A stretch of DNA of 64,000 bases from Sipunculus nudus (taxonomy: Eukaryota > Annelida > Sipuncula > Golfingiida > Sipunculidae). The notes beneath the pieces were generated by a model. That model was not told the DNA's origin. It saw only the letters and a list, made by a program, of their open reading frames with translations, and did not search any database. Where the stretch lies: assembly GCA_026874595.1 (NCBI GenBank), contig CM049309.1:55526079-55590078 (forward strand), written 5' to 3'. Positions 27,001-50,051 of the stretch are shown in pieces (position 1 is the stretch's first letter; the number at the start of each line of letters is the position of its first letter). Both the position numbers and the translations under genes were made by a program.

Positions 27001-30000
27001 TGACAGGTGTTTGCGGCTTTAACCGATTTGAATAACAAAGGTCACTACCCTTAAATACCATCTTCTATGATCTAAAGTCAAACAATAATGTATATTTCTT
27101 TTAAGTACAGATGCTACCGATTTTCCCGAACATAATGGCCAGCTCTCTGTGGCTTTTATTGTGCTCGCTTAGACTGTAATCTACTCGCGTCATGTATGTT
27201 CCATGACACGTTTGTATGTCAGAAGACAGGGCTTTCACTTTGTCTGAAGGGATTAATGCACTAGTGTTTGTTTGAGAGTTGGCCTGAGCTAGTCATTTTG
27301 AAGAAAAAATCGCTAATTTCAATTACATAAGTGTAATAATACTTATTGCAGATGGTTAACTGCAGCCGGCCACACATTGGAGCGTATGTTGCGCAACATC
27401 ATGCGCCACAACCTATTTCTTCATAAGTTTTCCTGAAACACGACCTCACACACACACACACATACGCAACATGTGCCCGAACGACTCAGTTTTTGTTGTG
27501 TCCATTTAAAGTGGCCTTCTATCATGGAGCCAGATGCCCCACACCATTTTGCTCAACAATATCCTACTGTGTAACCGGTTTTATTCTTTAAAGGACCGGG
27601 ATCTCCAGCAGTTATTGTGAAGGAGGGAACCACGGGTACGACGAAACACTCAGCAGTATGCACGTGAGTATGTTGCATGCCCCGGGCGGCACATTTTGGA
27701 GGGCGGCATTTCGGGGAATTAGTATAATAAGTGGCACGAGGATTTCCACAAAAAGTACAAATTTGACCTTTTTGTCCCATGTTCAAGTATTCCAGGGATT
27801 ATAAACTGGACATTTGAACCTACCAAATGATAAGCGAACAATTTGCACATTTTTTTGGGCGGCATTTCTGGGATTAAGTTTAATCAGTGGCTTAACGAGA
27901 TCCACAAAAAGTACAAATTTGGCCTCTTTGTCCCATGTTCAAGTATTCCAGGGATTATAAACTGGACAGTCGAACCTACAGAATGATTAGCGAACGAATT
28001 GTACATTTGTGGGGCGGTATTTCTGGGATTTACATTAGCAAAGAGATGTCTGCTCTTTAATATGTGGCGGAAGAATTCCCTGCCAGTGAATCCATATAAT
28101 TGCGTTGTTGTCAAATACAAGCCTATAACAAGGACATTTGAAACGATATGTTTCAATATGTAATCCAGTTTTGTAATGTTTTGTTATAGGTGGCAATTTC
28201 AAAGACCGCCCCGGGCGGCAATGAGGCTAGGTACGCCGCTGGTTGCATGTGTTCTTCTAGTCAAAGGATTTACTTTGGATTCTTGGAAAGGGAATTTAAC
28301 TATAAAGACAAAAAAATATGTCAAACTGTCAATGTTAGATACATATACCAACAAAGTATAAGGTATACAAAGTGCACTCATGAAAAATATATTTATATAA
28401 AGTCTATCCCCTCGAAACTTCAGGTTTTTCTTAAGTGTCAGTGCAATATCTAGTTAAGTTTACTATTGTGTGCGTCGATTTTATGTCAATAAATCCGTAT
28501 GCAAATCAGATTGTAAAGGATGATACCTTTGGTTTTTGCACAGAATGAAACATATTACACCTTGCATATGAATATAAATTATTATTTCCATTACGCAGGC
28601 GTTGTTTGTAGCTTACGGGAAGGATATTGCTCAGCTTGGAGAGGTTGACGCGTTTGATATCATTGAGATTTACAACTTAATGGCAGGTACGCTTCACCCA
28701 CCTTCAAACACTAATGATAGCCTAATGCAAGGTCCTACGGAGCATAGCTTATCGGGATCCAAGCTTTCAGAAAGATATTTATTCCAAGAATGTCATTTTA
28801 ATATTATATAACATTTTATGTTGTTGTCTAGAATGTAACAATTAGAAGTGTATACGTATTTTTTGCATGGTCAGATCTGCTTGGCATTACACCTTCCCCT
28901 AACAACGGAACTGCGGGATCATTAAGACATTTAATGAAGAACCCTTCGGCACTAACTACACCACCGCCACCAGAGGGCGCTTACTCTGCATGCCCCTTCC
29001 CTTCACGAGAGAAGGAAGAACAACGTCGTAACAGTACAAAATGTACATGTACAACAATGGCGGTATGGGGTGTTTTATAAAAAGACCTAGTCGATATGTC
29101 CACAATTAAGTGTAATTCCTATTTTAATTAATTTTTTCCATTTACTTTGAGCTGGACAAGAAAAACTTATAGTTAAACATAGACATTTTGCAAAAACAAA
29201 GTCTCCTGTTTAGATTCTATTTGCAAACTGAGTTTAAGGAAAGACTTGCACTATTTTCTTCAGAGCTTTAATATATTGTTAATTCACATGGACATATGCG
29301 AAGTTAATATTTTAGTTTATTATTATGTGTATTCCCTCATTTGAAAAGATGTAAAGTAGCATGAACTAATTTTTTTTCATACACAGACGTATACAAATAA
29401 ATTAGAAGAGGAGCTTAATGACCAGCTGGACCTTGATTCTGAAGAAACTGAGGAAGCATTAAAACAACACCTTCCGTTAGGAGTACCCGAGATCAAAATG
29501 ACGGACACCCAGCCCTGTCAGCTCACGCAGACAGATTATATTAGCGGTTACAGCCACGAGTACAGAATGCCACTGTGGACAGCTTACCAGCTTAACGGAG
29601 AGGTGAAAAGAGACTTGTTATATGAAGTTACTCACACATGCTCATTCAGAAATATTATATCAGTGGCCTCAGCCATAATACCAAATGTCACTGTGGTCAG
29701 ATTACCAGCTCGACGATTAGGAACGACAAAGTGAATGTAACGCCACTCAAACAACGACCAAGGCAATCAGTCCTCAATTCAAATATATCTTACCAGTTTA
29801 ACGGACTGTGCATTGCTCTTCGATGTATCAGTGGTCAAACCTTTTATATAACTCGTGCTCCATATACTGCCGCTGAATCATGGCCTTGCTCTATCAGAAT
29901 ATGTTTCAGATATTCACTTTAAAAGATACAACGATCAAGGTTCCTCTTCATACCGGTCTTCTTTCTGATACCAGGGCATTTCCCTCGCTGTTATTCTTAT

Positions 30001-33000
30001 GTATAGATAATGACTTTCTATTTCTCGTTACCATCTTTTGTTAGAACTGCTTTCTAATCTTTTGAATTCTTCAGTACCTTCAATTTATTATTTATCCGAA
30101 GAGCAGTCTTTTAATCATAATCCGGGAGAGGTATAGTGACAATTTTTTTTGTATTTTTTGTTACCCTTGATAAAGTTATGTGTCGTAAAGAATCTTGTGA
30201 ATACCTTCTCGCAGCTTTAAGAAAAATGTCTAAATTGTTCGGATTTTGGTTTTTAAGGACGAATTTGAGAGGCCAAACCTGAAATCACGACTCGACCTAC
30301 TGATTCCTGACTGCTCACGAGCTGATGTTCGCCTTCCTGTCAATAAGAGAACCGAATGTTCCTCCTACAATGATCCGGATAAAGATATAGTGCCGGGCTT
30401 CCTCTTCCCGCCAGGTCAATAATATTTATTTTGTATTGGTCACTTATAAGTGTATGTTGGTATTTATAAATAATTAAATACTGCTGTGCAGTCAATGCTT
30501 AAACAGAATGAGGAAAGTAAGAGGGGTACGTGGTTTGGTTAATTAATAAAGACTCTTTAAACGTCTTAGAAAATACTTTGTTGTTTGATATTTTCCGGAC
30601 AATTTTCAAGTGTACTGAAGTTTGGATCAGGACCCCTGTCTCCCTGCCTTGAAGAAAACTGAAGATAAAGCAAAAGACTAAATAATGCCCAGGAGACCAC
30701 CCAGAGATTTCAAAAGAAGTTATGAATAAGATGCAATTCTAGAAAGATTAGTTTACAAACCTCCATTTTTTTCATAATCAGAGAGGTCATGCATTGTGTT
30801 AATTATCATCTATATTTTGCGTTATCCATCCTGAATTATATGATAATGAACTAATTAAAATATCCCCATTTATAATTATGCAGGGTTTTCAATCTCCACT
30901 GAGTCTCAGTTTGACGCCTTGGTTTCTTCAAACATGGTGCCGATGTTCAGAGGATTCGCAGACGGTAAATAAATTACACCTTATCATTTAATGTTCTATT
31001 GACAACATAACCGTTATTATTTTTAAACATATAACATTACATATATCACAAATATATTTAACCTATTGGGATTCTACATTACATTACATGGATCATGCAT
31101 GTTGTTTGGATGAGGCTATGTATATGTATACGTAATATAATTTTGCCCTTTGCTATGACTCGGAATGAAATCATCAGTACCTTCTTATAATTCAAAAGTG
31201 CTTAATCTACGATGAATGGAAGAACATCTATATTACAGGAATCTGGAAGGACGCAATGTTACTTGTAGAAGAATATTCGTTTAAATATAAAACTGTCCAC
31301 GTGACGGCCGGCCCTCTGTTTGATTATGATGCTGATGGGCACAGAGACCCACTGGACTCCATCACAGAGTGAGTATTCTTAACTGTATAAATCTCCAAGT
31401 GACTCCCGGACCTCTGTGACAATTAACGATGCTGACCTACAGGTCTCCCTTGGGTCAAGGGATGGGCGGTGTGTTGGCATATAATTTGACACATGCAGAG
31501 GATCGCACAAAGAGAAATCACACAAGCCTCCTGGCCTGTAAAAAGCGAAAAAAAAATCAGATGTCAACACACGTACTTATACATAATTTTCTTATTTACC
31601 TTATAATGTGTATGACCTTTATAATCTTCTTATTCATAATTTGGTTGTGAATACAATAAAAAAAAAAATAAATTTTTTTTTGCATCGTGATTTACAATTT
31701 CTTGAGCATTAATAATACTTGTTATGAATTGGAAATAGCTCTTGAATGGCTTACCATGTTATAACCGTCACAAGAAAATCCACTCATTTTCATTCTTAAT
31801 AGCCAGGCAGACGTATCAGGTTTCTGCAAAGTGAAAAAAAAAAATGGATGGGGATTTTAGTCTATCCTTGGTAATAATTAGTCCCTGCAACACCAGGCTA
31901 ATCAGTGAATGCCTTCAGTGAATGTGTAATTAAGTATGACCAAACATGGATAGAGTCAGATTTGTTCCTTAGGCTCAGACCCATGTGTTGAAAACCCGAA
32001 TTCGATCATAATCAGCATATAATAAATATGATATATGTGCGTGTATTTTTTTCACAAATATATACAAATATATGGAATAAATTATCTGGTCTTATTATTT
32101 AAAATGTATTTGTAGCTTGCTCATGATCAGGTGGTAAATACAAACAAAACATCTTGGATTCTTTGCTTTGCTATAGACATTTCCAAGTGCATTATTAACA
32201 CATGTTATTAATCTCTCTGGAATAATTTACCATGTCATAATCGTCGGCCCTTTTCAAATGAAAAATAAATCCTTCTGTTCATTTGGTCTCTTGCTTGTCA
32301 GGCAGACGTTTCTGGTTACTACAGGAGTGATTTTAGTCTACGCTCGATATATATTAGTCAATGCAACACCAGGATAATTAGAGGGCACCTTCAGTGAATA
32401 TTTATTTAAGTGTGACCAAATCTTGATGATGCAGTCCGTTTTGTTTCTCAGGCCCATGATTTGAAAACCCAATTCAATAGTTTATTATTGCACCTACTAG
32501 CTATACTCAAAGCAGACTTCTCGATATAACTTGTCCTTATGGCGTTTGTATGTTAAATTATTTGTCAAACAATTTCAAGGAACGGCTGAGGATAGTGCAA
32601 TATTGAATATATTCTGGCTTGTTTAATTTGAATCACTGAAGCCGACTGATTTTGTTTGGTGACTGTTTTGTTATAAGCGATCATTTTCCTCTTACAGTGG
32701 TTGGAACTATTTCTATATCTACGTCATCTGTATTTCTATGAACTGGTATTCCTCATGGCTACAAAGATTTCATGCACAAAATACAAATAGCGTGTTTAAC
32801 ACCGGCCTGTATCTATATGTTTAGTTTAAGTTGGCTTAAATTTGCAATAACAGACTCATTTGGTACATTAAGTCGCTGGACAGTAAATCTCAAGACAGAT
32901 AACCTCAACATTCTTCACATGAAAATATATGTAAACATAAATCTTACCTCAGGTTACTGACGTTTCTAACATCTCTGTAGAGCAAAACACCGACCGATCA

Positions 33001-38803: not shown

Positions 38804-39881
38804 TAGAGAGATGACACAATTTTTTTTTATCAAATCTGTATATTAATGTAATGATGAAAACATAACCAGAGACGGTTGGGCGGTTCCGAGAGCTAGACGG
38901 GGTACTTTATCACTTTCAGCTTGGGCCCTGTTGATTCTGTTAGTCACGTGGGTTAATGCGGAAGTTCTTCCGGTTAGAAGAAGACTGCGAATCGGATGTG
39001 ACTGGGCATTCTAAATATGTAGGCGCGGGTCCTGTGGGAGCTCTTCAAGCCTTATTATGTGGGTCATTGCTGGTGTTTTTGGGTCTCGAGTGCTCCTTGG
39101 TCTTTTTAATGGATTTCTTCAGAGTGCCTGGCAAGTTACTCAAGTTTGATATTGCTCCTGAAGTTAGGTGTTAATATATTTTGGATTGCAAAATTTCTCA
39201 GGTCAGCCTCAGGGTATTCTGTCACATTCGGATTATCCGTATACAGTAGTGGTCCATAAGTTGGCAAGACACTTTTCAAGCAAGCATTGTATTAGGCATT
39301 CTTCAGCCCCATCCGTGTTATGAGGGTGGGTGCTCCAGGTTGTTACGTAAACCCTTGCAACTAAGACTTGGACAGCATGATACTTAGTTATCATAGTGTG
39401 CCAAGAGGAGTCATCCAAGGAATCTACAAATTCACCAATATTCACAATGAAATTCGCCTCTGTAATTATGTAAGTTGATGACTAATCATATTTTACAGAA
39501 CGATAGATAACGATGACCGGGTGGACATGGTTCTGTCTTGGTTGGACGGTTCTGAGGGCGTGAAACCGGACTTTATCACTCTCTACTTCAGCTCTGTTGA
39601 TTATGCTGGGCATGGTGGAGGCCCTGAAAGTGGAATGGTAGGTGTTTAGATTTTATACGACATGGCCATTTACTGAAGATATAGTATAAATTAATGCCAA
39701 CAAGTAGATTTTGTTGGAGAAACAACTTTGGTTACTATCTTAAATGTTGGCCATAAATAATAACACTTGACAGTGGTCTTCGCTGAGCTTTGCCCATTAA
39801 TAGCGAAATTGTGGTAATTTAAGCTTCGCTATCATGTCGGCATTTATATCATGCTTGTACATGCCTGCACATATGGATATA

Positions 39882-39937
<56 letters not shown>

Positions 39938-41533
39938 CAGGATCACGGATACAGACATGTTGAAGGTTCAGAGTAAACACTATGGATCTTTAATCTTTTG
40001 CCGGGAAGAAAATATATATACAAATATTGTGTTTTAAACAGAAAAAACGAATGTAATCTTGCACAGAAAGTAGTTATTTATTTGAACTGCCTAGAATAGT
40101 ATTAAGTATTATGTGTATGAGCGAAAACAGACTCACTTTTAAAATTTACAACCCCGGGCCTTGAAAACAGAGACAATGAACTGCGTGACCTTTGAGAGCC
40201 GCATTACTGACGAGTGATACATTTTGACAAGTTTACCGTAAGTGCTGCCGGGGATCGACGTAGATGGGGGAACCCAGGGCAGACGTTTCCTCTTTAACAC
40301 TATTTTATAATGACAAGTGGTTTATTATCCACACATTATTTAAAATATATTTGTTTTATAATGAATACGATACTTATTAGCCGACATGTCATCATATTTA
40401 CGTTAACTGGATTGTCTCTATATTTTTCTTAACTGATCAACAAGAGCTCTCTCACAGCGTAGCATGTCCAGTTTACTTTCAAAACCGTGTCTGTAAGCGC
40501 AGTCCTTGATCTCTATAATGTGTGATCAATCGGATTACTGTGACTGGCTGGCCGAGGAGAGGGCTCCTTCCCACTCAGTTTTCTGTAGAGCTTTGGATTT
40601 CGCCTGATTTAAAACCGACGGGTCCATGGTATCACATTATCTTACATATGTCTCCTTATCTCAGATCCAAGGACAGTCTTTACTTTTCCGATATTGTTAA
40701 TGCGTTTACAGGTTGATGACGCATTGATACACCTTGATAAAACTACTAAGAGGCTGATGGACAGTTTGTATCGACGGGGGACACACAACTGTGTCAATGT
40801 AATCATTGTCTCCGATCACGGTGAGTGTTACTATAAACATTACAATTATGAATATACTCTGTTCCTCTAACTTGTGTCCACCTCTTTTTTTTCGAGTTCT
40901 CATATTTTAAATAATTCTGTTTCTAAGATAAGGTGTATACGGTAGGTATTTTTTTATCTTATTGAAATTAAAGCCCTTTAATCTTCTACCATTCATTACC
41001 ATCTTTTCCCTTTAACTGTAACTGATAAAAATTGTCATATAAAAAAACAGGCGGACATGAATAGACAGAACAGACTTCAGGGTTAATTAGGGCTGTGTAT
41101 CGGTCCGCCTCTTCCGATACAATACGTATTGCGATACAGTTAATTCGATACCGATACGTATTGACGATACGTTTCATTTTTCTTTGTATATCATTTCTAG
41201 ATAAAAGTTCTGTTTCTTGTTTTTATATGTTTTTATTTTATTTTAACATACCACGTATTTAGTATGCTATGCTCTTAAATTTAGCGGGGAGGTTCATAGG
41301 CTGTATTTTTTTATGTCATGTAATTACACTGTTTTGTTCTGTGAATATGAATCCCATTAGTCACTCTCATGTTTGTACAGGATTTGTCCCCAAGCTTTAA
41401 CCATTTATTTTACATCTGTTGTCGAACGCGGGAGTTCCGAGTAACCTTTGACCGGCTGTGTAAATAAAAAAAAAGTTAGAGATAAAATGATTTATCATAA
41501 GGGAATAAGTGCCCTGCTTAGGTCACAGAATTG

Positions 41534-44500: not shown

Positions 44501-47500
44501 TCAGAAAGCTTGTAGATCCTACAGGGTACGACATAGTGTCTTTGTTAGCTGTTGATTCATTTTTAGGGTTTTGTATAAATCACTTATGCTCATATAAATT
44601 AAGTTAATTTTAGTACTATTTATTTTACATTGATATATGTACATAATAGGGGTAAACACCATTTTTGGGGCGCAGTGATCATAATTCTATATGTTTAAGG
44701 CCCCATCAGCTACGATTAGTTGGCATGCGGTATCAGATTTGTTCATAAATCCACGTGGGGTAATTATTCGGAGAGCTGTTAAACAGTACGCTGATGTGGA
44801 TACCTGATAGATCACGCTGTATCCGAAAGTCATGCATGTTGTAACCAGGTACAGCGCGGTATGGGGGTCATTTTGTCCACTGAAATAGTGAAATGACCAA
44901 GCATAGTGTAATAACGGAAAGACTTTAGGATGCCATCTTAATCAGAGGGCTGTTCATTAATATCCTCAACTTATGAAATAAAATAAATTTAAACTGTGGA
45001 TAACTTAATTTAATTGCTAGGCAATGTAAAATATATCTAAAAATGAAAATTTAATTTATTACGAATAACAGGGAAAAGAAATATAAAATATCAGAAGTTA
45101 CAGCTCAACAGGAGAGGGGGGGGGGGGGGGGGGGGGGGCTCCTCCCTCTGAATCCGCCACTGACATTACTACCAAAGGACGCGAATTCAATAATTGTGGA
45201 AATATTAATCTCTCGATAATCATTACATTGGTAACTTTTCATCTTCTCAAGCGTGATAATTCCCTGCCGGTCAGTCTTTATTAAAATGCATGTCTATGCC
45301 CGACTTCATCCCCAGTATAATGAATCTGACATCAGTGTGATATCAGTATCTGGGAATTTTTATGCCGTCTCCAAACAAGGAAGGACACATTTCTTATTGC
45401 ATAATCAGTGGGGCACGTATTTTTTATACTTTAAATGTGGACATATTGCTGCAGGACACAACAGCTGAGCTGAACGAGAGACTGAACAGATCAAAGATCC
45501 AAAACAATCAAAGTGTATCTGACCATCTGCCTCACGGGATGCCCGTCCTGACCAACAACGACACTGTCTGTATCCTGTACCATGACGACTACGTCTCAGC
45601 CTACAGCCATCAACGCAAGATGGCGCTCTGGTCAGCCTTCACCCTCAACAGAGATCAGGTGCTGTTTTAAGTTATCATAAATATCATAATCCAGATAGTA
45701 ATCAAAAGGTATAGCCAAGCTAACGGGGCTGCAATAATTATATGCATTACATCCATGAGCATTCTTAAGCGTATTTAGCTTTTATGATATTAGTGATCAC
45801 TTTATTATAAACATAATTAATAAAATAATAAAATAATTATTTATTTATGGAGTAAAATCCTCTCTGTATCTGTCATGGAGCTATTATTATATTAGTAATC
45901 ACCTTGGTATAAACAAATTTATTTATGGAGTAAAATACTCTTGAGGTAGTTATCTAGAACCGTCGTTCAAATTATATTGGCCGAAATTTGGAAAGAAAAC
46001 ATTTGAACATTATAATAACATCTGAAGTATCTTCAGACTTCTCACATGTCAGGGGTTGTTTCGTATGAAATATTTCAAGACTTGTCAAAATTGCCGATAT
46101 CGGTAAAAAGGATACCAGTCTTAATAAGCCTTTCTTTTATTAATAATAAATGACTTCACAAAAAAGCGTAGGGTGGTACATATCTTGATGAGTGGTTATG
46201 ATTACTTCAATTTCGATTTTGATATAATTACAGCTTTATGAATCGGAGGTTCTGACGGTGTACGTCAGTTATCACCACATGCGCACCCCTATTTCGTTTA
46301 ATATTGTTTTATATAATTTTAACTTTGTTTAAATACGTTGACAACCCTCCGACGATGTGACTAAAAAAATTTTATTTGAGTGAAAGTTTTGATAAGTATA
46401 CAGCTTTCGGACGCTGAAAAAAACAAAAACCTGTCAGATTTCCTCCGAGGGATGACCAATTATTCATTATTTTATCTTTAAGTCTTAATAAACTTACCAT
46501 TGAAAATCTTCGATTCCAAACTGTTATTGATCTAAACAGAGGGAACACCTTTCATAACTATGTTAAATACGATTACACTCTCTGATATGGAGGCACAAGA
46601 CGGTGTAAAAGTTGGGACCGAGTCCCAGGTGGACCATTTATTCAGCAATTAATCGAATCGTATGTTTTATACGCCTTCAGCTCTCAAACACGGAGATACA
46701 AAATTTTGTCAGATCTAAGCCCAAGGGGTTGACTATTTATTTTTTATTATACTAGATTTACGTTTTAATAAGTTTACACTTTCCGATATGGAGATACCGG
46801 ACTATGTTACATCTGGCTGCCCGGGTTGACAATTCTTTAATTATAATGCTTAGTTTATGTTTTAACCCTTTTACAGCTCTCCGACACAGAGATTCCAGAC
46901 TGCGTTAGATCTGACCCCCGGGTGGACCAGGCGGACCAGACGACCTGCGATGATTATACGTCCATGGAAGATCAGAGAATCACCCGAGTCAGTCTGTTCC
47001 CGCCAAGATTCAGCTCCTCAAACCAGACGATAGACGACGCCATGATCCTAACCAACAGCGTCCCCATGTACAACGGATCAGGTCAGGAGGAAAACTTGTT
47101 TCTAAAAAGTTACAAAAGTACATAGTCATGATATCCTGATCTTCAAATAACTAGTTTTTATGTAATTTGTGAAGGAGTTTAGCTGCATGGGGTAGAACCT
47201 ATCGTTTCGTTAGTATTAAATATTAACCATTGGCATTGTAATATTCGATTGCAAATTAGTAGCTCAGGGAGTAAACCCATTAGATATTCCGCCTAATGCG
47301 ACAGTATTTTGTCTTTAATGTCATTTAACTTCCCGACAATATTTCGAACAGATTAAGTATATATAGTATATGCGGTAAGGTATATGTTGTATAGTATATT
47401 TGATAAAAATAATAGTAGAATAATAAAATTGATAATAATAATAATAATAATAAAATCAATAATAATAAGAACATGAATAATATCAAACTACACACAATTT

Positions 47501-50051
47501 CTAGTGATATGGGATCACGTGATGACGTCAGTGGCCACGTGGGCACGAGACTATGACCGGCTTCACGTGATCGTGGGGTCTGTGTTTGATTACGACTTCG
47601 ATGGTCGCTGGGACCCAATCAGTTTATTACAGAGGTAATTTTTATTTCATGAAATAGACAAACCTATAAGGATCTGTGAAAATTAGTAATCATGAACAAA
47701 TTTGGATAAATTAAGCAAACGCTACTTCATGCTGTACTTCATTCTTAATTAGGAATGCCTAATATTTTTTTCTATTAATTGTTTTTTTTTTCACCAAAAT
47801 TTTAAAGAAAATGGGGAATAGCCTTTAAAATTAATGTGCTATTTTGTAAAGAAATTAAAAAATGTATATACATGTTCTACTTGAGTAGAAGAGGAGAAAA
47901 AATGCGGTACAAGAACAATTTGTGGACATTAAGTGTTCTACGAGCGTTTATTGTGTATCGAATTCCTTGTCAATTATTTATCTCGTTACAGGGATCAGAT
48001 GAAGAACATGGTGTACATCCCCTCCCACTACTACCTTGTGGCCCTGAAATGTAACAAACCTGACTGTACAGCAGACATGGATTATGACGTACAGGCGTTT
48101 ATCTTACCCAACATCGACAGGACGCTCAACTGTATGCAGGTAGGACACATTAAGTTCAGGGATCGTTTGGTATGATCGATAAGATCATTCATAGTCAAGC
48201 ATATTCACAGGCAGGCCAATGTATCTGTGGTCAGATACAATAATGATGCCAAATCCTTTATTTTTTATGGAAAATATTTTATCATTTCAACATGAAACGA
48301 TCTGCTTTGTTCTGTTGAGGTAAGGGTTAACCACGGGTGCTTTATCCATTACCTGAATGTAGGATAAGGCGAAACTTGTGTCACGTGTCTAGAGGAGATA
48401 TCTCGATGACAGTCGAAACTGGTATTTATAAAAAGGTTTTCCTTTCACAAGTGTCGGGATCATATTTTTATTGATGGCAACTACTTGTCGGTTACTTCAT
48501 GTTTGATCTAAAATGTACGTTAAACTATACACCGGGGCACAAACTCACTAATAATAAAAAAAGTTAAAAAAAAATGAATATTTTTATTATTATCATGAAT
48601 ACCATTTCATTTTAATGATATTGTGCACATGCACAAATGTAGTAATTCTTAGTTTTTCAACGTCATGAATTTTGTAACCCTTTTAATAATTTCCAAGAAT
48701 ACTTTTAAGTTATGATAAAACTTTTTTCATGTCTGTCGGCCTTAACTTTGTAATAGTAGTTTAGACGCATTATCATGTCAGAGCGCACGTGAAATTGCCA
48801 GTAAAAGAGGAATGCTACAATGTTGCGAACTCTAACGGAGCAGATGTTTGATCGTTAGGCTGTGTTAGTAGGTGTCCACCATTCACTTTGAGAATTATCC
48901 TGCTGACCTAAACATGCCTGACTAGCACAGCTACTGCTTAATGTTTTTTACCCCCAGAGGCCACCTTTGGGGGAAAAATTGGTCCCACAGATACCCCCCT
49001 GGACCCGCCACTGCCGATAACCTTTTTCTCCAGACATCAATCTACCAAAGAAAAAAAAATGGAAGTCTACAAAGAAAAAAAATGTGGAACGCTTCACGAA
49101 TTTGCGTGTCATCCTTGCCCCAGGGGCCATGCTAACCTTCTCTGTATCGTTCCGCAATGTGTATATGTACAACCGGAGCCGTACATATTTTTGTTTAGTC
49201 ATAAACAATAGGCCTATATACAGAGGCTCGCCGACTTGTTATGTATTGGGTACGTATTACAGAGACTGATCAGGCCGTACCACATTGACAGACGGGTCTG
49301 TGGAAGACATGTTTTGTAGATTTTCAAAAGAACCCTGTGGATACTTTCTGTATCATGCGGGTGAATTCTACGGATGATTGTCTTTGTTATGGCCGAGGTT
49401 GTATGGCGTGCTCAGTTGCCCGCCAAGACATGGCGGAAACACCTGGCATACACGAATGCCCCTGGCGCTACCTGCTGGCTAGCTAAAAAACTAACGGTTT
49501 TTGCTCGACCAGCCATGATCTGATCACGCGTGAGACCGAAAAGTGTAAATTAAAATTAGGATATGTTGTACCGCAAATATCGCGTGTATGTATATATTTA
49601 GCCAGTGAAATAATATGTACAACACACGAACTAGCCCTAAGTTACCCCAGCCGGCTGGGCCGCTGTCATACTTGTAAACGTGCTTTTACGGGACAGGACG
49701 TTTTGTTGGAGTATATATCTCTAGCGTCCGGGTCTATAAAATTATCTGTTTGGAGCGTCCAAGATATTTTGTAGCTAACTTATATATATGTCATGGCTAA
49801 AAAGGAATATACTCTATAAAACAAACTATTAAACTACGTATTAGGATTTCTGTAAACGAAATATCTTAAATGTTCCGATACAAGATTTGTTCTCGTTTTA
49901 GTCCCGCCTGGACGATTACCTGATGGATAACACAGCACGTATTCGGGACATCGAGCTGCTGACAGGCTTACAGTTCCTGACAGCACACAACACTCAGCAA
50001 GGATTGCTGGCTCGGCTGCGTCTTCAACAGCGACTGTGGGCCAAATCATAA
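14190..50051 (+). CDS. ENPP: Two-module ectonucleotide pyrophosphatase/phosphodiesterase, 36 exons placed
   Basis: Spliced model. The exons listed separately below join in one reading frame; total 1,541 residues, or 1,545 with the candidate first exon at 10029 (numbering used throughout). ENPP1/3-type enzymes are cell-surface zinc enzymes that cut nucleotide phosphodiester or pyrophosphate bonds to give 5'-nucleotides. Order: cytosolic tail, TM helix 28-51, short linker, module 1 (phosphodiesterase ~98-470, nuclease-like ~600-830), module 2 (phosphodiesterase ~839-1215, nuclease-like ~1336-1545). Zinc and nucleophile residues: module 1 D110, T146, D266, H270, D313, H314, H428; module 2 D849, T885, D1005, H1009, D1052, H1053, H1173. 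Calcium loops DxDxDGxxD at 710-718 and 1432-1440. No somatomedin-B domains. About twice the usual family length. Family is certain; joining both modules in one mRNA rests on splice phase and on the absence of a start or TM exon between them. Confidence 0.85.
16160..16560 (+). pseudogene. Possible Ty1/copia polyprotein remnant
   Basis: Reading from about 16219, the frame gives [12 protein letters not shown], then [11 protein letters not shown] and LELV...TRGDKSF. This order resembles the GAG-pre-integrase CxxC block and integrase start of copia elements. It is short, lacks surrounding domains and ends in stops. Weak call. Confidence 0.35.
17748..17801 (+). CDS. ENPP: ENPP exon: tail and first half of TM helix
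   Basis: 54 bp, phase 0 to 0, TTGCAG acceptor, GTGAGT donor. Encodes [21 protein letters not shown] before the hydrophobic run suits a type II signal anchor. The helix continues directly in the next exon, which supports the junction. The 1.8-kb intron that follows shows nothing recognisable. Confidence 0.72.
17802..19620. other. Intron without recognised content
   Basis: No repeats, transposon ends or exon-like segments recognised in this 1.8-kb intron. Confidence 0.5.
19621..19808 (+). CDS. ENPP: ENPP exon: second half of TM helix and linker
   Basis: 188 bp, phase 0 to 2. Starts [16 protein letters not shown] (end of TM), followed by about 45 extracellular residues ending KWMDTDC...CPEG. 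The W-x-C-CPxG pattern matches the short linker before the phosphodiesterase domain of ENPP1. The two somatomedin-B domains that lie here in vertebrate ENPP1-3 are absent. Confidence 0.85.
20179..20350 (+). CDS. ENPP: ENPP module 1: start of phosphodiesterase domain, nucleophile
   Basis: 172 bp, phase 2 to 0. Contains LLLISLDGF (zinc ligand D110) and [14 protein letters not shown] (nucleophile T146). Near-canonical for ENPP1/3. Donor GTAAGG. Confidence 0.95.
20496..20615 (+). CDS. ENPP: ENPP module 1: GLYPESHG exon
   Basis: 120 bp, phase 0 to 0. [16 protein letters not shown], the family block after the nucleophile; N167 corresponds to the active-site Asn. Ends HWWGGDP. The 2.7-kb intron after it contains a possible exon relic near 21790-21880 and otherwise nothing recognised. 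Confidence 0.95.
21790..21880 (+). pseudogene. Possible relic of the WPGSD exon(s)
   Basis: One frame reads [13 protein letters not shown]...FPD, which loosely follows the order [12 protein letters not shown]...YPD of the exons at 23303 and 23551. Intron position is adjacent. Similarity is weak. Confidence 0.3.
23303..23378 (+). CDS. ENPP: ENPP module 1: FFWPGSD exon
   Basis: 76 bp, phase 0 to 1. [21 protein letters not shown]; the WPGSD nucleotide-pocket motif is intact. Confidence 0.95.
23551..23584 (+). CDS. ENPP: ENPP module 1: 34-bp microexon
   Basis: 34 bp, phase 1 to 2, encoding [12 protein letters not shown], which holds the family tyrosine that stacks on the base. Same length as the module 2 microexon at 38549. 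The following intron carries a Harbinger-like MITE. Confidence 0.92.
23715..24048 (-). mobile_element. Harbinger-like MITE, copy A
   Basis: 334 bp with GGCC ends; TIRs carry GGTATGGTTCTCAGGCAC. Flanked by TAA on both sides, a TWA target duplication as in PIF/Harbinger elements. Inverted relative to 33910-34245. Confidence 0.8.
24677..24815 (+). CDS. ENPP: ENPP module 1: EPDWAGH zinc exon
   Basis: 139 bp, phase 2 to 0. Holds [18 protein letters not shown] and AGHANGP; D266 and H270 are zinc ligands. Donor GTAAAA. Confidence 0.95.
25294..25402 (+). CDS. ENPP: ENPP module 1: ADH zinc exon with GC donor
   Basis: 109 bp, phase 0 to 1. Ends [12 protein letters not shown] (D313, H314 zinc ligands). 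The codon for the next Gly is split across a GC donor (GCAAGT) and the exon at 25809; a GT at that junction would be expected and is not there. Confidence 0.93.
25809..25955 (+). CDS. ENPP: ENPP module 1: post-DHG exon
   Basis: 147 bp, phase 1 to 1. [13 protein letters not shown] then a variable middle ending IVEQMDG. The family has DHGM at the start; here it is DHGL. Donor GTATAT. The 688-bp intron after it shows nothing recognised. Confidence 0.92.
26644..26797 (+). CDS. ENPP: ENPP module 1: RRHHF exon
   Basis: 154 bp, phase 1 to 2. [14 protein letters not shown], then [19 protein letters not shown], the domain stretch before the last zinc His. Same length and phase as 42813-42966. The 796-bp intron after it shows nothing recognised. 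Confidence 0.93.
27594..27663 (+). CDS. ENPP: ENPP module 1: GNHG zinc exon
   Basis: 70 bp, phase 2 to 0. [18 protein letters not shown]428 is the last zinc ligand. An alternative acceptor at 27609 keeps the frame but removes five residues; the longer form matches the module 2 exon spacing better. Confidence 0.88.
27690..28020 (+). repeat. Two ~155-bp tandem units
   Basis: Both units carry GGGCGGCATTTC, then CACAAAAAGTACAAATTTG, then CCCATGTTCAAGTATTCCAG; a third start is present at 28010. A GCCCCGGGCGGC palindrome lies on both sides (27678 and 28206), suggesting a transposon around the repeat. Confidence 0.75.
28599..28686 (+). CDS. ENPP: ENPP module 1: end of phosphodiesterase domain
   Basis: 88 bp, phase 0 to 1. 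[20 protein letters not shown], then IIEIYNLMA, the family ALFVxxGP/IEVYNLM block. Same length as 43415-43502. Confidence 0.95.
28875..29062 (+). CDS. ENPP: ENPP module 1: inter-domain linker exon 1
   Basis: 188 bp, phase 1 to 0. [16 protein letters not shown] is the family 'L.L.PAPNNGT' motif; a proline-rich stretch and a Cys pair (CTC) follow. The GT at 29063 opens a 324-bp intron with nothing recognised. Confidence 0.93.
29387..29602 (+). CDS. ENPP: ENPP module 1: inter-domain linker exon 2
   Basis: 216 bp, phase 0 to 0. Acidic [19 protein letters not shown], then LPLGVPE and [17 protein letters not shown], the start of the nuclease-like domain. A decayed copy of its 3' end lies in the next intron at 29650-29716. 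Confidence 0.94.
29650..29716 (+). pseudogene. Decayed duplicate of exon 29387-29602 (3' part)
   Basis: Aligns by eye at about 75% to exon bases 29536-29602, sharing TATAT, CAGCCA, CACTGTGG and TTACCAGCT in order. Another short piece, CTTACCAG, is at 29790. Confidence 0.65.
30258..30414 (+). CDS. ENPP: ENPP module 1: nuclease-like domain exon 1
   Basis: 157 bp, phase 0 to 1. Begins [19 protein letters not shown] and ends PGFLFPP. The intron that follows (469 bp) has no counterpart in module 2. Confidence 0.92.
30884..30964 (+). CDS. ENPP: ENPP module 1: nuclease-like domain exon 2
   Basis: 81 bp, phase 1 to 1. [10 protein letters not shown] is the family 'TNIVPMY' motif. In module 2 this is fused to the preceding exon. 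Confidence 0.92.
31239..31368 (+). CDS. ENPP: ENPP module 1: calcium-loop exon
   Basis: 130 bp, phase 1 to 2. [16 protein letters not shown]; the DxDxDGxxD loop (D710-D718) is the family's EF-hand-like calcium site. A decayed copy lies just downstream at 31384-31441. The next intron (1.87 kb) holds an internal duplication and a GGTTC element. Confidence 0.94.
31384..31441 (+). pseudogene. Decayed duplicate of the calcium-loop exon
   Basis: Aligns to exon 31284-31342 with TATAAA, GTGAC, CCTCTGT and GATGCTGA in order, beginning 16 bases after the donor site. Confidence 0.6.
31700..32480 (+). repeat. Diverged tandem duplication in intron
   Basis: 31700-32005 and 32178-32480 share, in order, TTACCATGT, CAGGCAGACGT, GATTTTAGTCTA, GCAACACCAGG, CTTCAGTGAAT and GAAAACCC. 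Confidence 0.7.
33070..33222. mobile_element. GGTTC/GAACC palindromic element, copy 2
   Basis: Alternating GGTTC and GAACC motifs, right end CATAGAGTGTA. Related in motif and terminus to 36969-37260. Left end not defined. Confidence 0.6.
33236..33371 (+). CDS. ENPP: ENPP module 1: IPSHYYVVL exon
   Basis: 136 bp, phase 2 to 0. [15 protein letters not shown] and MIIPHKKRV, the family 'PTHFFIVL...AFILPH' block. A GGTTC-type element ends only 14 bp before this exon. Confidence 0.93.
33681..33886 (+). CDS. ENPP: ENPP module 1 end and inter-module linker
   Basis: 206 bp, phase 0 to 2. First part, [17 protein letters not shown] through [11 protein letters not shown], matches the module 2 last exon. 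Second part, WLDQDKC then NCPAG, resembles the linker at the end of exon 19621-19808. There is no stop before the donor GTGAGT, and the phase matches the first exon of module 2. Reading past the donor gives an immediate TGA. Confidence 0.9.
33910..34245 (+). mobile_element. Harbinger-like MITE, copy B
   Basis: 336 bp, same TIRs and body as copy A in the opposite orientation, flanked by TTA on both sides. Confidence 0.8.
35077..35242 (+). CDS. ENPP: ENPP module 2: start of phosphodiesterase domain, nucleophile
   Basis: 166 bp, phase 2 to 0. LLLISYDGF (D849) and [14 protein letters not shown] (nucleophile T885). The lysine before the nucleophile (TKTF in module 1) is Leu here. The following 969-bp intron shows nothing recognised. 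Confidence 0.94.
36212..36331 (+). CDS. ENPP: ENPP module 2: GLYPESNG exon
   Basis: 120 bp, phase 0 to 0. [16 protein letters not shown]: His and Asp of the SHGIIDN motif are replaced by Asn and Gly; N906 is kept. The following intron (1.96 kb) has a long (TA)n, a CCGG array and a GGTTC element. Confidence 0.94.
36815..38050. mobile_element. CCGGTCCGG array element, split
   Basis: CCGGTCCGG/CCGGACCGG motifs cluster at 36820-36925 and again at 37978-38050. The GGTTC element lies between them. Ends not defined. Confidence 0.45.
36969..37260. mobile_element. GGTTC/GAACC palindromic element, copy 1
   Basis: Starts CACTCTAAAAAA, followed by many GGTTC/GAACC motifs and two AATG..CTGAGTGGGGAA units. 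Right boundary uncertain. It sits inside the CCGG array element. Confidence 0.65.
38292..38367 (+). CDS. ENPP: ENPP module 2: MWVGSD exon
   Basis: 76 bp, phase 0 to 1. [13 protein letters not shown] where module 1 has [11 protein letters not shown], so the pocket proline is Val and a Phe is Met. Confidence 0.9.
38549..38582 (+). CDS. ENPP: ENPP module 2: 34-bp microexon
   Basis: 34 bp, phase 1 to 2. [12 protein letters not shown]; the base-stacking Tyr is kept. The next intron contains a (GA)n run and a decayed copy of the following exon at 38871-38945. Confidence 0.88.
38764..38799. repeat. (GA)n microsatellite
   Basis: GA dinucleotide run of 36 bases in the intron after the module 2 microexon. 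Confidence 0.95.
38871..38945 (+). pseudogene. Decayed duplicate of the SVDYAGH exon
   Basis: Shares with exon 39499-39637, in order, GGTTGG, CGGTT, ACTTTATCACT, CAGCT and CTGTTGATT. Lies 554 bases upstream of the real exon. Confidence 0.65.
39499..39637 (+). CDS. ENPP: ENPP module 2: SVDYAGH zinc exon
   Basis: 139 bp, phase 2 to 0, equal to 24677-24815. [21 protein letters not shown]1005 and H1009 are zinc ligands. The usual EPD is SVD. Confidence 0.94.
40712..40820 (+). CDS. ENPP: ENPP module 2: SDH zinc exon
   Basis: 109 bp, phase 0 to 1. [19 protein letters not shown], then [11 protein letters not shown] (D1052, H1053). Donor is a normal GTGAGT, unlike module 1. The next intron carries a hAT-like element. 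Confidence 0.94.
41088..41947. mobile_element. hAT-like non-autonomous element with GATACG array
   Basis: 860 bp. Ends TAGGGCTGTGTATC and GATACAGCCCTA are inverted repeats. Flanks GGGTTAAT and GTGTTAAT form an 8-bp target duplication matching at 7 of 8 bases, as in hAT elements. Both ends are rich in GATACG/CGTATC, and a (TA)n lies inside. No coding. Confidence 0.75.
42200..42361 (+). CDS. ENPP: ENPP module 2: post-DHG exon
   Basis: 162 bp, phase 1 to 1. [14 protein letters not shown], then a divergent stretch ending YPVDQEDQ. Donor GTTGAA at 42362 fits the phase of the next exon; an earlier GTACAA at 42321 would break the frame. Confidence 0.84.
42813..42966 (+). CDS. ENPP: ENPP module 2: [10 protein letters not shown] exon
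   Basis: 154 bp, phase 1 to 2. [10 protein letters not shown], then [20 protein letters not shown]. Same length and phase as 26644-26797. Confidence 0.94.
43088..43160 (+). CDS. ENPP: ENPP module 2: GMHG zinc exon
   Basis: 73 bp, phase 2 to 0. [19 protein letters not shown]1173 is the last zinc ligand. Confidence 0.93.
43415..43502 (+). CDS. ENPP: ENPP module 2: end of phosphodiesterase domain
   Basis: 88 bp, phase 0 to 1. [20 protein letters not shown], then NIELYNIMA. Equal in length and phase to 28599-28686. The following 791-bp intron has an LTR-like stretch. Confidence 0.95.
43640..44257 (+). mobile_element. Possible solo LTR
   Basis: Contains TATATACAAAGG followed by CGGCTCTGTGGCCGG and later GGAATAAACCTGTG, a promoter-then-poly(A) order as in LTRs. 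TG...CA ends are guesses, with no clear target duplication. Confidence 0.3.
44294..44457 (+). CDS. ENPP: ENPP module 2: inter-domain linker exon 1
   Basis: 164 bp, phase 1 to 0. [20 protein letters not shown] is the family PAPNNGT motif; ends CPCGH. The intron after it carries a poly-G MITE-like stretch. Confidence 0.93.
45110..45162. mobile_element. Poly-G and GAATCCGCCACTG MITE remnant
   Basis: A run of about 24 G followed by CTCTGAATCCGCCACTG, the worn end of the family described at 1751. Confidence 0.45.
45455..45658 (+). CDS. ENPP: ENPP module 2: inter-domain linker exon 2
   Basis: 204 bp, phase 0 to 0. [20 protein letters not shown], then [20 protein letters not shown], start of the nuclease-like domain. 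Donor GTGCTG is weak. The next intron holds the ghost-exon array. Confidence 0.92.
46234..46876 (+). repeat. Array of ghost 3' splice-site/exon-start copies
   Basis: Five diverged copies of the acceptor and first ~55 bases of exon 46877-47081 start near 46234, 46404, 46578, 46681 and 46779. Spacing from the last two to the exon is 98 and 196. Copies at 46234, 46404 and 46681 keep the acceptor AG. The nearest matches the exon at about three quarters of 54 bases. Confidence 0.75.
46877..47081 (+). CDS. ENPP: ENPP module 2: nuclease-like domain exon (fused)
   Basis: 205 bp, phase 0 to 1. [20 protein letters not shown], then [13 protein letters not shown] and [11 protein letters not shown]. Corresponds to two exons of module 1 (30258-30414 and 30884-30964); the intron after the FPP motif is absent here. 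Confidence 0.92.
47418..47471. repeat. AAT trinucleotide repeat
   Basis: Imperfect (AAT)n in the intron before the module 2 calcium-loop exon. Confidence 0.85.
47505..47634 (+). CDS. ENPP: ENPP module 2: calcium-loop exon
   Basis: 130 bp, phase 1 to 2. [18 protein letters not shown]; DxDxDGxxD loop at 1432-1440. Equal in length to 31239-31368. Confidence 0.94.
47992..48139 (+). CDS. ENPP: ENPP module 2: [10 protein letters not shown] exon
   Basis: 148 bp, phase 2 to 0. [19 protein letters not shown] and [10 protein letters not shown]. The next intron (1.76 kb) contains a GGATCCGCC-type MITE piece near 48948-49013, otherwise nothing recognised. Confidence 0.93.
49902..50051 (+). CDS. ENPP: ENPP module 2: last exon with stop
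   Basis: 150 bp, phase 0. [18 protein letters not shown], then [14 protein letters not shown] and TAA at 50049-50051. DIELLTGL is the family 'DVEHITGL' C-terminal motif. Confidence 0.94.
   Translation, partial: SRLDDYLMDNTARIRDIELLTGLQFLTAHNTQQGLLARLRLQQRLWAKS

Follow-up and report, generated by a model that had tools for sequence, protein, structure and literature searches.

Introduction

In the human interferon-induced gene 6-16 (IFI6), a minisatellite with short units gives rise to multiple splice donors. Intron gain by tandem duplication has reportedly been described by Rogers, by Zhuo in 2007 and by Gao and Lynch in 2009. The closest described systems are the "mirage" minisatellites of lancelets, which are documented in the available part of the original report for the gene Adh3 and the globin genes Gb6 and Gb9 (PMC3087553). 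Further lancelet mirages are located in PGBD5, Adh and troponin C (TnC), and the excerpts of the second report term the repeats of PGBD5 imperfect (PMC3902484). The repeats of Gb6 comprise the 3' end of an intron and the 5' part of exon 2; according to the accessible sections, splice signals occur in many but not all units, the copy number varies, and RT-PCR suggests that splicing is undisturbed (PMC3087553). In human segmental duplications, internal tandem repeats at exon-intron boundaries with an average unit of 30 bp alter the paralogs and can form novel introns, for which the available text of the study provides transcript evidence (PMC2812944). Arrays with the anatomy of the mirages were absent outside lancelets among the matches listed in our literature search, which covered mostly papers outside subscription journals.

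The current study deals with a stretch of 64,000 nucleotides from Sipunculus nudus (the window), in which the intron 45659-46876 of a gene for an animal-type ENPP enzyme (ectonucleotide pyrophosphatase/phosphodiesterase) harbors a decayed tandem array. The last unit of the array is the real junction at position 46877, and the decayed upstream copies are designated as ghosts. Judged from their sequence, they look like the neutral fossil of an old repeated duplication and not like working alternative splice sites.

The host gene and its intron

The ENPP-type gene matches the Pfam family PF01663 (Phosphodiest) in the stretch 40613-40846 (E=3.9e-08; 33.7 bits with a cut-off of 23). The two exons that flank the intron are matched by the solved chains of ENPP3, ENPP2 and ENPP1, with ENPP3 as the best match (E=4.5e-22). 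A Pfam search with three C-terminal stretches, including the two intron-flanking exons on their own, gave no match. The organization around the junction is as follows:

45455..45658, plus strand: upstream coding exon, ending with ...TLNRDQ (translation; matched by ENPP3, ENPP2 and ENPP1 jointly with the next exon; 91-94% identity in paralogs)
45659, plus strand: donor GT of the host intron (sequence)
45659..46876, plus strand: host intron of 1218 nt, phase 0 (GT...AG and flanking exons conserved in paralogs)
46877..47079, plus strand: real exon, beginning with LSDTE (ENPP3 alignment; 90-94% identity in paralogs)
46829..46929, plus strand: terminal real unit and profile stretch, made up of 48 nt of intron end and 53 nt of exon start

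The first half of the host intron contains a separate tandem pair (45777-45941) outside the ghost array, which matches at 76% over 59 nt with an offset of 102 and at 96% over 25 nt with an offset of 78. Upstream of the exon 39499-39640, the segment 38874-38939 represents a 74% copy of part of this exon with stops in the matching frame; in the paralogous gene L013 (see below), a 144-nt copy of the corresponding exon is located about 2.3 kb upstream of it. The ENPP exon starting at 47992 is followed downstream by a match to the U6 spliceosomal RNA (49078-49184, minus strand, 83.8 bits).

The ghost array in the window

The repeat unit has a length of about 98 nt and comprises about 45 nt of intron end and 53 nt of exon start, beyond which the ghosts revert to A/T-rich intron. 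The original prediction had placed five copies ahead of the real exon, at 46234, 46404, 46578, 46681 and 46779, and their positions as well as their L-starting frames were confirmed. Its statements that the two nearest copies are spaced by exactly 98 nt (98 and 98) and that three copies, namely 46234, 46404 and 46681, retain the AG are equally correct. Our profile search, which started from the five real junctions only and was then iterated, identified seven ghosts in the window, thereby adding 46345 and 46498/46499 to the initial five. The first round returned 19 further places including three in the window and a faint relic in the paralog L014 (E=0.0056), which was gone in later rounds and is excluded from the counts below; four of the seven window ghosts were detected only after iteration. 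The individual copies are:

46199..46876, plus strand: ghost array, in which seven decayed tandem repeats of intron end and exon start precede the real unit's tail (iterated profile; no extra match in 20 shuffled sets)
46234..46262, plus strand: ghost 7 (farthest), exon-like start at 46234, LYESE, AG kept, counterpart L009:1086 (iterated profile, tree)
46345..46361, plus strand: ghost 6, exon-like start at 46345, AG lost (CAA), weaker copy (iterated profile, tree)
46404..46457, plus strand: ghost 5, exon-like start at 46404, LSDAE, AG kept (iterated profile, tree)
46498..46547, plus strand: ghost 4, exon-like start at 46498/46499, AG lost, weaker copy (iterated profile, tree)
46578..46635, plus strand: ghost 3, exon-like start at 46578, LSDME, AG lost (first profile round, tree)
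46681..46733, plus strand: ghost 2, exon-like start at 46681, LSNTE, AG kept (first profile round)
46779..46830, plus strand: ghost 1 (adjoining the real exon), exon-like start at 46779, LSDME, AG lost (first profile round, tree)

The exon starts of the window ghosts exhibit 40-72% identity to the real exon start, with gaps counted as differences. Open frames of 32 (46234), 25 (46404), 24 (46578), 24 (46681) and 16 codons (46779) agree with the predicted minimum of 16 codons for all five copies, but taken alone this is weak evidence, given that 32-34% of plain intron positions reach the same length. Over all paralogs, frames of at least 16 codons are present in 15 of the 26 ghosts.

Distribution among paralogs

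The best genome matches to the intron plus exon fall on the same contig, at six additional sites that extend across about 0.27 Mb. Our comparison is based on five distinct introns, namely those of the window gene, L009, L010 (standing for L010-L012), L013 and L014; L011 and L012 were left out of the counts owing to their identity to L010 over 2,937-2,972 aligned bases. The iterated profile search documents a differing copy number, with seven ghosts in the window, nine in L009, seven in L010, three in L013 and none in L014, i.e., 26 in the five introns. The initial counts and the shuffles were based on the last 1,872 nt of the L010 intron, and the total was still 26 when a later search extended back to the preceding exon. 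The AG is kept in 17 of the 26 ghosts and in three of the seven in the window. The region around the intron of a more distant ENPP paralog in the window (about 29603-30293) contains three short two-copy matches of 14-15 nt and no array.

The genes L010, L011 and L012 lie about 15.4 kb apart and show no difference in the 2.9 kb compared (100% identity), which is indicative of either a tandem triplication of very recent date or an artefact of the assembly. The L009 intron contains another tandem repeat (intron positions 698-1473; 70% over 563 nt; offset of about 250-280), which sits between the ghosts L009:1086 and L009:2290. A COX1 search in the assembly retrieved nine near-equal matches with open frames of 577-578 aa on eight contigs (C60, C61, C62, C66, C72, C74, C75 and C89); contig C123 carries a COX1-family gene, which was assigned by eye to the cbb3-type oxidases, and C5 a short COX1 fragment. 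The nine near-equal matches are presumably bacterial, and the nine contigs with long COX1-family frames may reflect symbionts or contaminants in the assembly. An Rfam search with L027 gave no match.

Comparison with chance expectation

The original prediction had set a self dot-plot of 45659-47081 as its own refuting test, and this test does not refute it, since signal is present at the offsets of 98 (score 20) and 196 (score 21). The other ungapped self-diagonals of the array score 23 (offset 97), 23 (offset 201) and 19 (offset 280). Across 300 dinucleotide shuffles, the highest score at any offset had a median of 13, a 99th percentile of 17 and a maximum of 20, with a maximum of 12 for the offset of 98 alone; the diagonals at 97, 98, 196 and 201 equal or exceed the maximum of all shuffles. 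Further high scores of 31 (offset 102) and 23 (offset 78) stem from the tandem pair outside the array described above.

The iterated profile detected no ghosts in 20 of 20 sets of shuffled introns in which the last 48 nt were kept. Nine other acceptors of these genes served as controls for the same profile procedure; seven of them are present with AG in all five genes, and 43415 and 47505 are present in four. They yielded one extra match in total versus 26 at 46877, and this sole match is a copy of another exon in the L013 gene.

History of the array

A phylogenetic tree was established for 31 units. The ghosts of the window, L009 and L010 mostly group by position and not by gene (positions A-E), and the array is therefore older than the split of these three genes. 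The support for the starred groups amounts to 100/99 for A (window and L009 only), 98/95 for B, 96/91 for C, 99/99 for D and 99/98 for E. Position G is more weakly supported (81/72), and the window copy 46681 stands on a long branch of its own, separate from the position-F ghosts that are presumed to correspond to it. The two presumed copies at position H do not group in the tree, and the three L013 ghosts have no clear placement; positions F and H were matched by eye, based on their order and shared letters.

The farther a ghost lies from the real exon, the lower is its identity to the real exon start in the window (rho -0.86, p=0.014) and in L009 (rho -0.77, p=0.016); in L010 this trend falls short of significance (rho -0.57, n=7), and in L013 it is reversed (rho +0.5, n=3). 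This gradient is compatible with the addition of copies beside the real junction, although a homogenisation of near copies would look alike. The "relic of serial duplication" that had been suggested from the window sequence is thus supported by the array order common to paralogs, the identity gradient in two of four arrays and the neutral divergence of the ghosts.

Divergence of the ghosts

The divergence counts cover 22 of the 26 ghosts, arranged in 20 pairs that are not independent of each other. L009:2928 and the L013 ghosts (three) lack a clear counterpart and were excluded, and 160 gapped cells in the ghost exon starts were set aside. The pattern of change is neutral. Between positional counterparts, 220 of 981 sites (22.4%) are changed in the ghost exon starts, compared with 4 of 159 (2.5%) in the real exon start between paralogs. 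The intron tails of the ghosts (-46 to -21) differ at 91 of 462 sites, and the corresponding value for the real unit's own intron tail is 16 of 78 (20.5%). Changes in the ghost exon starts are evenly distributed over the three codon positions (79/334, 71/334 and 70/313; p=0.76), and early stops or frameshifts are found in many positional counterparts. The AG is changed at 7 of 40 bases, which is no less than the rest (p=0.84).

Conservation accordingly lends no support to the two other options of the original prediction, i.e., decoy acceptors, in view of the changed AG, and alternative C-termini, in view of the even codon positions and the broken frames. A function as alternative coding ends is not supported by the codon-position counts. 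The ghost columns from -20 to -1 changed slightly less than those elsewhere (62/396 vs 311/1443, p=0.009, from non-independent pairs); this may be explained by mutation bias, because these columns are A/T-rich, or by weak constraint. Altogether, the comparison of the sequences supports a probable serial duplication with neutral decay over conserved decoy acceptors or alternative C-termini.

In the two flanking exons (45455-45658 and 46877-47079), fourfold sites (42-52 per pair) differ by 5-13% between paralogs; the value for intron and ghosts is near 20%. The exon differences between the window and L014 are not concentrated at third codon positions (17, 11 and 13). The low fourfold divergence and the spread over codon positions may reflect gene conversion, or relaxed or diversifying selection.

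The real acceptor

The tract before the AG of the real site reads TAACCCT or TAACCGT in the window, L009 and L010, and mostly TAATACG in the ghosts. TAACC is present at the real site of these three distinct genes with seven to nine ghosts, and TAATAC in most ghosts and at the real sites of L013 and L014, which have three and no ghosts, respectively. None of the 26 ghosts has a C at position -10, where the real sites of L013 and L014 have an A. The pyrimidine fraction amounts to 0.71, 0.76 and 0.71 at the three real sites (window, L009 and L010) vs 0.41-0.71 in 23 ghosts (p=0.004). The pyrimidine-richer tract may represent a strengthened acceptor, but it probably reflects a single ancestral change and is given little weight. 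A more far-reaching reading, which we regard as rather doubtful, would take the array as a polar, one-way record: copies would have been shed singly into the intron, the order of the ghosts would be a time series of the exon's past, and the real acceptor would have strengthened its pyrimidine tract against competition.

A small acceptor matrix, established from 43 acceptors of the same genes, assigns scores of 6.9 to ghost 46234, 5.1 to ghost 46681 and 6.5 to the real site. The matrix is poor, because the real site scores in the lowest quarter of the 43 acceptors (lower quartile 8.0) and the AG that it ranks highest in the intron (46053; 7.7) is located outside the array. If a window ghost were used, its frame would stop after 12-32 codons (25-32 for 46234 and 46404, 24 for 46681). 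A stop that precedes the next junction by well over 50 nt generally leads to transcript decay, and nonsense-mediated decay of ghost-spliced transcripts would thus be expected, because their stops lie at such a distance from the junction at 47079.

Proposed origin and alternative explanations

The most plausible scenario, with a probability of roughly 0.88, is that a junction-spanning stretch of about 98 nt was tandemly duplicated in the ancestor of the ENPP cluster, that the copies decayed neutrally and that the gene was then duplicated together with its array. The tandem duplication would have proceeded in several rounds and covered the 3' end of the intron plus 53 nt from the start of the next exon, probably by slippage or unequal exchange and with most copies added beside the real junction. 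The last copy would have stayed joined to the intact exon, where splicing keeps the protein whole. The upstream copies would have become intron, lost their constraint and decayed, because splicing can keep using the last, authentic acceptor; in the animal, it presumably uses 46877. Gene duplication would then have spread the array, leaving paralogs that share the order of ghosts, with gains or losses of units between them.

Chance similarity among A/T-rich, splice-like sequences would account for weak single short matches and for 16-codon frames, which are open at a third of intron positions; its probability is nevertheless practically nil, as it is ruled out by the shuffles, the nine other acceptors and the order common to the paralogs. 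Mobile elements are a frequent source of intronic repeats, and the ghosts might accordingly belong to a dispersed repeat or transposon that carries the motif. This origin is highly improbable, given that the unit includes coding sequence of the gene itself and that the genome searches, in which the best candidates were scored and very common words skipped, placed 12 of 12 unit matches (E<=10) and 19 of 19 matches to intron plus exon (E<=0.001) within this gene cluster. The dispersed repeat was rejected on the basis of these whole-genome searches (1.43 Gb; best candidates scored).

A functional role of the ghosts as decoy or regulatory acceptors, which would result in an ENPP without its C-terminal domain or in loss of the transcript by nonsense-mediated decay, could be deduced from the AG and open frames of three window copies, from the matrix scores of 46234 and 46681 near that of the real site and from the slightly lower change in the columns -20 to -1. 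We nonetheless consider it improbable: the AG is without special conservation, the frames are broken in many positional counterparts, the copy number is not kept, with no accepted ghost in L014, and the scores stem from a matrix that ranks the real site low and an AG outside the array highest. The ghosts might alternatively represent mini-exons that are arranged in tandem, used in a mutually exclusive manner and followed by weak donors, such as CAG|GTGGAC after 46578, where a possible phase-0 donor at 46629 was read by eye. The lack of an AG at this very ghost and the even distribution of exon-start changes over codon positions make mini-exons a scarcely credible explanation.

Comparison with known systems

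The array resembles the minisatellite of IFI6 in multiplying a splice site, with the difference that donors are affected in IFI6 and acceptors here. It shares with the lancelet mirages, as far as the accessible sections describe them, the tandem units of intron end and exon start (here about 98 nt with seven copies and the real one), the splice signal in many but not all units (here an AG in 17 of 26 ghosts) and the variation of copy number, which is documented here between paralogs only (PMC3087553). In contrast to Gb6, whose units of 150-160 bp are 81-100% identical and subject to concerted evolution according to the same excerpts, the units described here are about 98 nt long, decayed to 40-72% identity, and cluster at positions A-E by position and not by gene (PMC3087553). 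The occurrence of a common array in paralogous genes and its neutral decay also distinguish it from the lancelet mirages in the available part of that report (PMC3087553). The published mirages considered here are all from lancelets, whose genomes have a size near 0.5 Gb, compared with 1.43 Gb for the genome that contains the window. A high identity of the units is not taken as a defining property of mirages, because the repeats of PGBD5 are called imperfect in the excerpts of the second lancelet report (PMC3902484).

The human boundary repeats are likewise of the minisatellite type and located at a splice boundary of duplicated paralogs, but the accessible text reports units of 30 bp and novel introns, whereas the ghosts reside inside an existing intron and their use would be hypothetical (PMC2812944). 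Splice signals are also involved when introns are gained through tandem duplication of exon sequence, as outlined in the available sections, but here an existing intron was lengthened, with no new intron in evidence (PMC2891723).

A decayed array that is common to several paralogs shows the fate of such arrays: the copies lose their coding constraint, their AG is as prone to change as other bases, the intron grows longer, and the real exon is untouched. It moreover provides a natural test of how the spliceosome picks the last of many similar acceptors. In comparison with the systems described so far, the array of the ENPP cluster is probably best filed as an old, decayed case of a "mirage" minisatellite of the lancelet type.
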